64,000 bases of DNA from Acidobacteria bacterium RIFCSPLOWO2_12_FULL_66_21 (GTDB taxonomy: Bacteria > Acidobacteriota > Vicinamibacteria > Vicinamibacterales > 2-12-FULL-66-21). Positions 29,792-31,481 of this stretch are shown here, piece by piece. Every line of letters begins with the position of its first letter. Position 1 is the stretch's first letter. The position numbers were made by a program, and so were the translations under genes. The notes under the pieces are model-generated. The model did no database searches. It had not been told where the DNA came from and worked only from the letters and a program-made list of their open reading frames with translations. The stretch lies in contig MELC01000038.1 in assembly GCA_001767455.1 (NCBI GenBank), forward strand, positions 174,753-238,752, read 5' to 3'.

Positions 29792-29926
29792 CTAGAAGAG
29801 CATTCGCGGGGCCACGAGGCCGGCCCGCACGGCGACGTACCCTGCCACGAAGCTGCCGGCGACACTCGCGGCGGCGACGGGCCACGCGCCTTCCGACAGC
29901 GCCCTGAACGTCTCCAACCCCATCAT
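29792..29926 (-). CDS. Short CrcB/Fluc-like C-terminal ORF (possible remnant)
   Basis: This is a 44-codon reading frame. GLETFRALSEGAWPVAAASV and AGSFVAGYVAVRAGL resemble the last helix of CrcB fluoride channels, which follows a GGLTTFSTF motif. Just upstream in the same frame, directly after the antiporter stop, a 15-base tandem duplication encodes GGGLTGGGLT, suggestive of the damaged motif. Intact CrcB is about 125 residues with four helices; here only one helix is left, so either this is a relic or it encodes a one-helix peptide. The position in a fluoride-riboswitch operon supports CrcB ancestry, but the similarity is short. Confidence 0.45.
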   Translation of the reverse strand: MMGLETFRALSEGAWPVAAASVAGSFVAGYVAVRAGLVAPRMLF

Positions 29927-29968: not shown

Positions 29969-31159
29969 TCACCGGCCCCCACTCGCCACAGCTTCCTGCG
30001 GTGACGTTTCCGCCGGAAGCAGGTGCGTCGGCATGAAGAACGCGTTCGCAATCATCGTTGGAATGACGGCGCTGCCGATGACGGTCGCGACGAGATACGA
30101 ATACTGCGCCTGACTGATCACGTGGTGATTCAAACCGAACAACGCGGAGATGGTGCCGAAGGTCAGCCCCGTGGACATCATCAGCGTGTAGTACATGCGC
30201 TCGCGGCCCACGTACCTGTACCAGTGAACGGTCGGCCAGATTCCCAGCGACTTGCTCGCCGATTTGCCGAGGAACAACAACACGAACGTGAGCGGCGCCG
30301 CGACGAGCGCCGGAACCGAGACGAACGAGCCCGCGCGAATGAAGTAGAACGGCGTGAGCAGCCCGAACGTGACCGTGCGCAGTCGCCGGACGAGGACGTG
30401 ATCGTTCCCGACAGTCCCCGCGAGGACCATCCCGATCAGGTACGCCGGCAAGACGGCTTCGCTCCCGGCCCAGACCGCAAGTCCGCCCATCGCGAAGACC
30501 GCGAACAGAATGAACTTCGCTTCGAGTTCAGATACGCGTCCTCCGTACCGTCTGAAGAAACGCGGCGTGACGATCGGAAGAACGGCAAACACGATCACGC
30601 TGGCAATGACGAACAGCACGGTGCGAGACGTGAATGGAGAGAAGATCAAGCCGAGCGCAATGACCGTGCCGAGATCGTTGACGAAGCATGCGGCCAGGAC
30701 CGCCTTGCCGAACTCCGTGCGGTTGAATCCCAGTTCGAGCATGACCGAGTAGACGACCGCCACCGATGTGGTGGACAGGGCGACTCCGGCCAGCCAGCTT
30801 GCCGGCCATCCCCAATGGAGGAGAAAGCGCGCCACCATCGCGCATCCGATGAACGGCGCGAAAAACCCGGCGAGCCCGACAACCGTGGCTTCCTGCCACT
30901 TGCGCCGGAACACGGTCGGATCGATCTCGGCGCCTGCGAGAAACGTGAGGAGGATCGCCCCCGCGCCCGCGAGGAACGTGACCCACTCCGAGCGGCCGGC
31001 CAGCACTTCTGCTCCGACGAATGTGCCGAGGACCAGCTGCGCGACGGTGCCGACGACGATTTCGCTAAGCGCTGTCGAGAGCTTCAGCCAGATCGCGACC
31101 AGCGTCGCGACAAGCGCCAGGCCGACCCAGATCGCCGCACTGAACCACACGTTTTCCAT
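29969..31159 (-). CDS. Cation:proton antiporter (CPA2 type)
   Basis: This 396-residue inner-membrane protein has about 12 helices and the CPA2 family landmarks AGAILLTFLAGAEIDPTVFR and CFVNDLGTVIALGL in the ion-binding region, where the Asn-Asp pair is expected. The C-terminal half (LAGTVGNDHVLVRRLR, FGLLTPFYFIRAGSFVSVPA) is also typical. No C-terminal NAD-binding (TrkA-N) domain is present. Such antiporters exchange Na+ or K+ for H+. It is the first gene downstream of the minus-strand fluoride riboswitch; antiporters of this type are known members of fluoride-riboswitch regulons, presumably to restore pH or ion balance. AGGGGA precedes the ATG. Confidence 0.92.
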   Translation of the reverse strand: MENVWFSAAIWVGLALVATLVAIWLKLSTALSEIVVGTVAQLVLGTFVGAEVLAGRSEWVTFLAGAGAILLTFLAGAEIDPTVFRRKWQEATVVGLAGFFAPFIGCAMVARFLLHWGWPASWLAGVALSTTSVAVVYSVMLELGFNRTEFGKAVLAACFVNDLGTVIALGLIFSPFTSRTVLFVIASVIVFAVLPIVTPRFFRRYGGRVSELEAKFILFAVFAMGGLAVWAGSEAVLPAYLIGMVLAGTVGNDHVLVRRLRTVTFGLLTPFYFIRAGSFVSVPALVAAPLTFVLLFLGKSASKSLGIWPTVHWYRYVGRERMYYTLMMSTGLTFGTISALFGLNHHVISQAQYSYLVATVIGSAVIPTMIANAFFMPTHLLPAETSPQEAVASGGR

Positions 31160-31212
31160 ACGGGTCCCCTGGTTGTCGGGCTTGCTATCGGCACGGAGGC
31201 ACGCGGCGAGCG

Positions 31213-31242
31213 GACTCCTGCGAGCACAAGCCCGTAGGAGTC
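31213..31242 (-). promoter_or_regulatory. Expression-platform hairpin of the minus-strand fluoride riboswitch
   Basis: Minus-strand GACTCCTACG (31242-31233) can pair with CGCAGGAGTC (31222-31213), ten pairs with one A-C mismatch around a ten-base loop. The 5' arm is the same ACTCC segment that closes the aptamer pseudoknot, so the two structures exclude each other. No U-tract follows, so it is not a standard intrinsic terminator. Confidence 0.65.
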
Positions 31243-31290
31243 ATCTGCCCCGTCAAGAGGTAGGGCGGTTGAGGGTGAACTCCAACACCC
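31234..31290 (-). ncRNA. Fluoride riboswitch (crcB motif), minus strand
   Basis: Minus strand from 31290: stem GGGTG/CACCC enclosing TTGGAGTT, linker TCAACC, stem GCCC/GGGC with loop, then AGATGACTCCTAC. GGAGT in the first loop can pair with ACTCC at the 3' end, forming the fluoride-aptamer pseudoknot. The conserved strings TGGAGTTC and GATGACTCCTAC are identical in the opposite-strand riboswitch 80 bases away and agree with the known T. petrophila aptamer layout. It leads the antiporter-dynamin-enolase operon. Confidence 0.9.
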
Positions 31291-31357: not shown

Positions 31358-31363
31358 TATAAT
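31358..31363 (+). promoter_or_regulatory. -10 box TATAAT before the plus-strand riboswitch
   Basis: A perfect TATAAT lies eight bases before the first base of the aptamer stem (31372), so the transcript would begin almost exactly with the aptamer. No convincing -35 hexamer was found at 16-18 bases. Confidence 0.7.
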
Positions 31364-31371
31364 GGGCCAAC

Positions 31372-31427
31372 GGCGGTGGAGTTCGCCGAAACCGTCCCCG
31401 CTCATTGGGGGGACTGATGACTCCTAC
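31372..31427 (+). ncRNA. Fluoride riboswitch (crcB motif), plus strand
   Basis: GGCG/CGCC encloses GTGGAGTT, followed by GAAACC, a GTCCCC/GGGGAC hairpin and TGATGACTCCTAC. GGAGT pairs with ACTCC to close the pseudoknot. The layout corresponds part by part to characterised fluoride aptamers (GGCGATGAGGCCCGCC, AAAC, hairpin, TGATGGCCTCTAC). It precedes DUF190 and USP-DUF190 genes, both classical companions of fluoride resistance genes. Fluoride binding should stabilise the pseudoknot and prevent the overlapping terminator, turning expression on. Confidence 0.93.
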
Positions 31428-31468
31428 TCGAGGATCCTGCGTACCTCGGTAGGAGTTTTTCTCTTTTT
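31420..31468 (+). terminator. Riboswitch-controlled intrinsic terminator
   Basis: ACTCCTAC (31420-31427) pairs with GTAGGAGT (31449-31456), extended inside by CGAGG/CCTCG, and is followed by TTTTTCTCTTTTT. The 5' arm is the pseudoknot strand of the aptamer, so aptamer and terminator are mutually exclusive, the standard design of a fluoride ON switch. Confidence 0.92.
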
Positions 31469-31481
31469 GGGAGACCACCCT

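Follow-up and report, generated by a model that had tools for sequence, protein, structure and literature searches.

How does a fluoride riboswitch control its gene when the hairpin that competes with its aptamer is not followed by a U-tract? This question was raised by the minus strand of the window, the whole 64,000-nucleotide stretch of Acidobacteria bacterium RIFCSPLOWO2_12_FULL_66_21 DNA that was analyzed. A fluoride riboswitch aptamer (RF01734) lies on this strand at 31298-31228 (cmscan 42.1 bits, gathering score 34), on the side of an antiporter gene, and a second one lies on the plus strand at 31363-31433 (51 bits), ahead of DUF190 genes. Both score above the RF01734 gathering score. 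They are divergent and about 64 bp apart, and no further RF01734 match occurs in the genome. The structural features of the family can be read directly from the minus-strand aptamer: P1 (GGGUG 31290-31286 with CACCC 31277-31273), the pseudoknot (GGAGU 31283-31279 with ACUCC 31241-31237), P3 (3' strand GGGGC, 31251-31247) and a pairable long-range contact, U31285-A31246, which corresponds to A10-U38 in Bacillus cereus numbering and is here a U-A pair. The gene neighborhood (antiporter, DUF190, enolase) fits a predicted role in fluoride binding and fluoride resistance for the aptamer. By its sequence features, the minus-strand element is a genuine fluoride-sensing riboswitch ahead of an ion-antiporter operon.

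Paired aptamers were also seen in a genome of the same family (G009 contig 182, L003/L005), where two divergent copies are separated by about 65 bp; the minus side has a different antiporter, and the platform on the plus side sequesters the Shine-Dalgarno sequence (SD). Contig 491 of that genome carries three fluoride aptamers within 5.3 kb (L004, L006, L007), two of them with U-tract terminators.

The ACUCC strand of the minus-strand aptamer is used again by an anti-aptamer hairpin. The core of this hairpin (31242-31213), made of strands 1 and 2, pairs GACUCCU (31242-31236) with AGGAGUC (31219-31213) and CGGGC (31234-31230) with GCUCG (31225-31221) around a UUGU loop. This gives 12 pairs (7 + 5) with a single A.C mismatch, not the ten pairs counted in the first-pass annotation. 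The energy of the core is -20 kcal/mol (z -4.19), and none of 200 shuffles was as good. An extended form that also takes the P3 3' strand is predicted at 31253-31201, with -32.0 kcal/mol. The hairpin is followed by CGCUCGCCGCG, which is rich in G+C and holds no U-tract, and at most 2 T occur in the 8 nt after the extended stem. No terminator-like sites were found on the minus strand between 30900 and 31700. The minus-strand platform therefore lacks the defining arrangement of an intrinsic terminator, a G+C hairpin with a U-tract immediately behind it, in agreement with the first-pass annotation, which had described an anti-aptamer hairpin on ACUCC without a U-tract and hence no ordinary intrinsic terminator. 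It had also described a textbook terminator for the plus-strand copy, and one was found: the hairpin of that copy is followed by GUUUUUCUCU, as in a normal U-tract terminator (GACUCCUAC...GUAGGAGUU then UUUCUCUUUUU, 31419-31471, plus strand).

The regulated gene encodes a CPA2-type cation/proton antiporter (31159-29969, minus strand; PF00999, 3.7e-30), which also matches TIGR00932, but under the cut-off of that model. Its ATG at 31159 is 54 bases downstream of the hairpin end at 31213, the distance and the gene type both being as first annotated, and an SD, AGGGG (31166-31170, minus strand), is found 6 nt ahead of the ATG. The antiporter is the first gene of an operon-like, same-strand run (31159-25742), followed by a dynamin-like GTPase (29773-27749; PF00350), a protein with a weak AAA match (27939-27076) and enolase (27031-25742; PF00113). 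A 44-codon frame between the antiporter and dynamin genes (29793-29924, minus strand) looks hydrophobic and has no Pfam match. Elsewhere in the phylum, fluoride aptamers also precede antiporter, dynamin or enolase genes, each separately.

To place this platform among its relatives, RF01734 was searched in the order (162 genomes), the class (193 genomes) and a phylum sample (396 genomes), sets that overlap, and about 160 aptamers were read together with their downstream DNA. Three kinds of platform were found in the Acidobacteriota: a hairpin with a U-tract (T type), a hairpin with an arm that serves as the SD (S type), and a U-less hairpin well upstream of the start (H type). The counts are reliable for the broad picture alone, in which the H type dominates the organism's own class (23/37) and the S type leads outside it (55/123); automatic start-codon choice misplaced some genes (L010, L032, L038, L066, L104, L115), so that the H count outside the class is inflated, and the wrong H calls are mostly there. 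Antiporters related to the one in the window were found with T, S and H platforms. U-tracts are used by the plus-strand copy and by about 15-25 other loci in the genome and phylum. The minus-strand platform is not of the S type, in which the arm serves as the SD and the start follows within about 16 nt, since its arm ends at 31213 and the gap to the start at 31159 is 53-54 nt. The predicted arrangement of a deep U-less hairpin is not a one-off; it recurs across the Acidobacteriota.

The aptamer itself also differs from most others. It reads GUUGGAG...CAGAUGA, compared to GAUGGAG...CUGAUGA in the consensus, and the positions concerned make up the A10-U38 pair of B. cereus, a long-range reversed Watson-Crick contact (PMC10687018). 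Among 160 Acidobacteriota aptamers, this pair is A-U in 126, G-C in 22, U-A in 11 and G-U in 1, with no mismatches, and these variants represent natural covariation for the reversed Watson-Crick pair. The sole G-U is the plus-strand copy of the window. All 11 U-A members of the survey are of the H type. When 84,980 species genomes were scanned for the U-A pattern, 88 stretches were obtained, 87 in records titled as Acidobacteriota lineages and 1 labelled Arcobacter; the U-A subtype is almost confined to the Acidobacteriota.

The hairpins of this subtype resemble the one in the window. In 97 subtype leaders, the hairpin often runs past ACUCC into the aptamer, with GGCAGAUGACUCC pairing with GGAGU-UGUCUGCC, so that the recurrent GUCUGC that follows the arm belongs to the stem and not to the tail. 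Just 3 of 93 subtype hairpins have at least 5 T in the 8-nt tail, and the U-tract is missing in the other 90. For 71 long-leader members, the mean hairpin energy is -20.3 kcal/mol vs -11.2 kcal/mol for shuffles, and in 31 of them 0 of 25 shuffles were as good. The case that the first-pass annotation had set against its own reading, a more distant terminator with a U-run and pairing to the aptamer strand, was looked for at the locus and in 59 subtype leaders and not found. In these 59 strong-hairpin, long-leader members, the strict scan gave no canonical terminator before the start, although its sensitivity is limited, as it flags 12 of 27 T loci. In about 22 subtype members the start lies no more than 40 nt away, and these are S-like in appearance. 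In 53 of about 95 loci (L165-L252), the assigned gene behind the U-A aptamer is a dynamin-like GTPase (PF00350). Together with the presence of such a gene in the antiporter-enolase run of the window, this suggests that the dynamin-like GTPase belongs to the fluoride response.

If no terminator follows the hairpin, a different partner may carry the signal, and the leader contains a candidate. An inverted repeat places a third strand, CAAGCCCG, at 31184-31177 (minus strand). Its complementarity to CGGGCUUG (31234-31227), which forms the 5' side of the upper stem in the hairpin, is perfect. The competing, fluoride-on hairpin is formed by CGGGCUUG:CAAGCCCG plus inner pairs between GGAG (31218-31215) and CUCC (31198-31195), and its MFE is -32.4 (z -2.8 vs leader shuffles). 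The anti-aptamer and third-strand hairpins share strands, and their formation is mutually exclusive.

We dropped the idea that CGGGCUUG:CAAGCCCG is a chance repeat, since the subtype shows the same complementarity. Across the subtype, the rest of the real leader shows greater complementarity than shuffled leaders to the segment from ACUCC to the arm (z -1.58, p 2.4e-10), a value obtained with phylogenetically related sequences, 44 after dereplication, and one that supports the helix by complementarity. The control classes gave z -0.35 (U-tract, T; not significant) and 0.02 (SD, S), and the subtype leader by itself is unstructured (z +0.24). Examples are CGAGGGUU:AACCCUCG, with GGAAGGAG:CUCCUUCC inside it, in L176, GAGGGAUUU:AAAUCCCUC in L193 and CCAGGUUUUC:GAAAACCUGG in L175. 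A simple duplex search in fixed windows gave a weak third-strand signal (z -0.64). Subgroup consensus folding with MAFFT/RNAalifold recovered the hairpin, and the third strand in one group of four alone. One relative, L043, has a separate U7 terminator some tens of nt beyond its U-less anti-aptamer hairpin, and the freed arm is predicted to disrupt this terminator, which would be a relay too. Such a relay was rejected for L083, L130 and L106, which also have U-less hairpins and, some tens of nt on, separate terminators that fold equally in both states. A leader peptide starting from the GGAG arm was also rejected: 59 leaders show no enrichment of start codons 3-15 nt past the arm, and the peptide GUG CCU CCG UGC CGA UAG at the locus itself is unsupported. 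No description of a third strand in fluoride riboswitches was found in the open-access literature searched.

To examine the output, the energy needed to open the SD was compared between two states, one in which the hairpin is formed and one in which ACUCC is blocked. The median difference was 16 kcal/mol for the S type, -0.8 for the T type and 0.3 for the H type. With a median of just 0.3 kcal/mol, the H class is unlike simple SD sequestration. A small effect remains for this class against leader shuffles (mean +0.89, p 0.005). At the locus itself, the calculated cost of opening the SD region is 0.5 kcal/mol in the ON state vs 5.2 in the OFF state, and its excess over leader shuffles (5.4) is the top of 46 members. 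The OFF-ON difference for the SD window is 3.66, which was reached by 0 of 60 shuffles. When strand 3 is free, the CCC within it (31180-31178) is the predicted partner of the SD (31169-31167), with a pair probability of 0.85-0.90 in the OFF ensemble, a contact of just three G-C pairs. In a fold ending at codon 4, the predicted OFF state includes a helix between GUAUGGA (31161-31155), which holds the start codon, and UCCGUGC (31197-31191); this AUG helix depends on fold length and changes once more coding sequence is included. The antiporter orthologues support SD masking unevenly. Two show it (L024, 2.56; L141, 1.68; each matched by 3% of shuffles), and three do not (L015, 0.0; L150, 0.1; L014, -1.4 kcal/mol). 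Rho, pausing or translation had been offered as outputs in the first-pass annotation. Of these, the structure calculations favor translational control at this locus, possibly followed by Rho.

These results point to the following mechanism. In the absence of fluoride, formation of the near hairpin is predicted to follow directly on its transcription. ACUCC (strand 1) and the P3 3' strand would be absorbed by this deep hairpin with its GGAGUC arm (strand 2), and CGGGC would be locked as well. Strand 3 (CAAGCCCG) would then be free to mask the SD and AUG of the antiporter, turning translation off, and the untranslated message may then be terminated by Rho. Fluoride locks ACUCC into the pseudoknot, as is established for this riboswitch class, and therefore the anti-aptamer hairpin would be blocked and its strands left free for strand 3. 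Strand 2 and CGGGCUUG would bind strand 3, and the ribosome site would open. The aptamer, the hairpin, the missing U-tract and the complementarity between leader and hairpin are established by sequence and statistics. The switch between hairpin and strand 3 is what complementarity and energies lead us to infer, and folding points to the masking of the ribosome site. We consider it an even call that this is a fluoride-ON riboswitch using a three-strand relay in place of a terminator. A step more tentative, and a little short of even, is the proposal of a distinct Acidobacteriota architecture, in which a U-A aptamer would be combined with a U-less hairpin that absorbs P3, and a recurrent third strand would relay the decision to a Rho entry site or a ribosome site as far as about 100 nt away.

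Another possible explanation, which we consider rather unlikely, is Rho-gated transcription. Without fluoride, the C-rich single-stranded leader would load Rho, and with fluoride the third-strand fold would prevent loading, ribosome-site masking being secondary. Relative to control upstream regions, the long-leader class has an excess of C over G (+0.076 vs -0.013, p 1.7e-10) and more YC (0.190 vs 0.137). Its leaders have modestly more unpaired C in the OFF than the ON state (9.9 vs 7.6 per leader; SD class 10.3 and 10.1), and its median SD accessibility is unchanged between states. Rho is present, with two full-length matches over the cut-off and one shorter match (G000 contigs C39 and C29; L253-L255), and Rho-coupled riboswitches are known (PMC12810186; PMC11647493). 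However, C-richness is also expected from complementarity to the GGAG and GAGGG strands. In the transcript of the locus itself, the C/G of the 78-nt stretch is ordinary (69th percentile), and stretches with regular C are rarer than in the background (15% vs 39%). The leader from hairpin to SD is just about 42-43 nt.

Termination or a hairpin-stabilized pause without a U-tract, in which the deep hairpin alone would release or stall RNA polymerase, is unlikely. The hairpin is very stable and is placed where terminators of the U-tract class sit, a general fluoride motif has its poly-U reduced to pyrimidines (PMC13273304), and phage phiC31 terminators without poly-U are reported in a reference of that paper. 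This explanation is disfavored because the same genome, and the phylum, use U-tracts and because a strand that recurs past the site of the supposed release would be pointless; the tail CGCUCGCCGCG is also rich in G+C. Direct SD sequestration, in which CUCCU (31240-31236) pairs with AGGGG (31170-31166), held by CGGGCUUG:CAAGCCCG, and the near hairpin is a mere folding intermediate, is very unlikely: the ACUCC:SD fold comes out as the MFE when 149 nt or 96 nt of the leader are folded, it has the same energy as the near hairpin (-42.1 for the near hairpin vs -42.8 for the long helix in the bare leader), and ACUCC:SD pairing is used directly by most relatives elsewhere in the phylum, but the near hairpin wins the unconstrained fold once the P3 3' strand is included and forms earlier in transcription, and the SD of any gene is complementary to ACUCC, which makes the match alone weak evidence.

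The three-strand relay can be compared with known systems. Described fluoride platforms exchange two strands, pseudoknot vs terminator stem, with poly-U, or are translational (PMC13273304). In the broadest motif poly-U is lost to pyrimidines and some variants reach into P3, and a terminator was predicted for just 536 of 1901 fluoride riboswitch sequences in a large survey (PMC13273304). The minus-strand switch shares with the transcriptional crcB riboswitches of B. cereus and Thermotoga petrophila the aptamer, the capture of ACUCC by a downstream GGAG arm and the fluoride-ON logic. Unlike these two-strand, poly-U systems (PMC13273304), it is U-less, takes up P3 and is followed by a third strand. 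The riboswitches of Pseudomonas syringae and Burkholderia pseudomallei are named as translational controls (PMC13273304), and like them and the S type, the switch has no terminator and a predicted output at the ribosome site. In the S type, the GGAG arm itself serves as the SD and precedes the start by a few nt, whereas here arm and SD are about 42-43 nt apart and masking would act via the third strand. The Rho-coupled Mycobacterium tuberculosis Mbox pe20 and Escherichia coli mntP (PMC12810186) similarly relay between alphaSD and anti-alphaSD strands without an intrinsic terminator, but they have other ligands, and here there is no conserved uORF and a role of Rho is putative.

The minus-strand switch is real and recurrent and would be a novel form of fluoride riboswitch, its output step being putative. 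It is more structured than the first-pass annotation had seen, which missed the extension of the hairpin into P3, the recurrent third strand and how common the arrangement is in the phylum. Fluoride platforms have so far been modelled as a single strand exchange onto a terminator or SD. If the three-strand relay is true, this would be a fluoride riboswitch that works otherwise than by two-strand exchange onto either of these. The U-less hairpin with its third strand offers a concrete, testable platform for part of the fluoride riboswitches for which the survey predicted no terminator, in a phylum whose RNA biology has been little studied by experiment.
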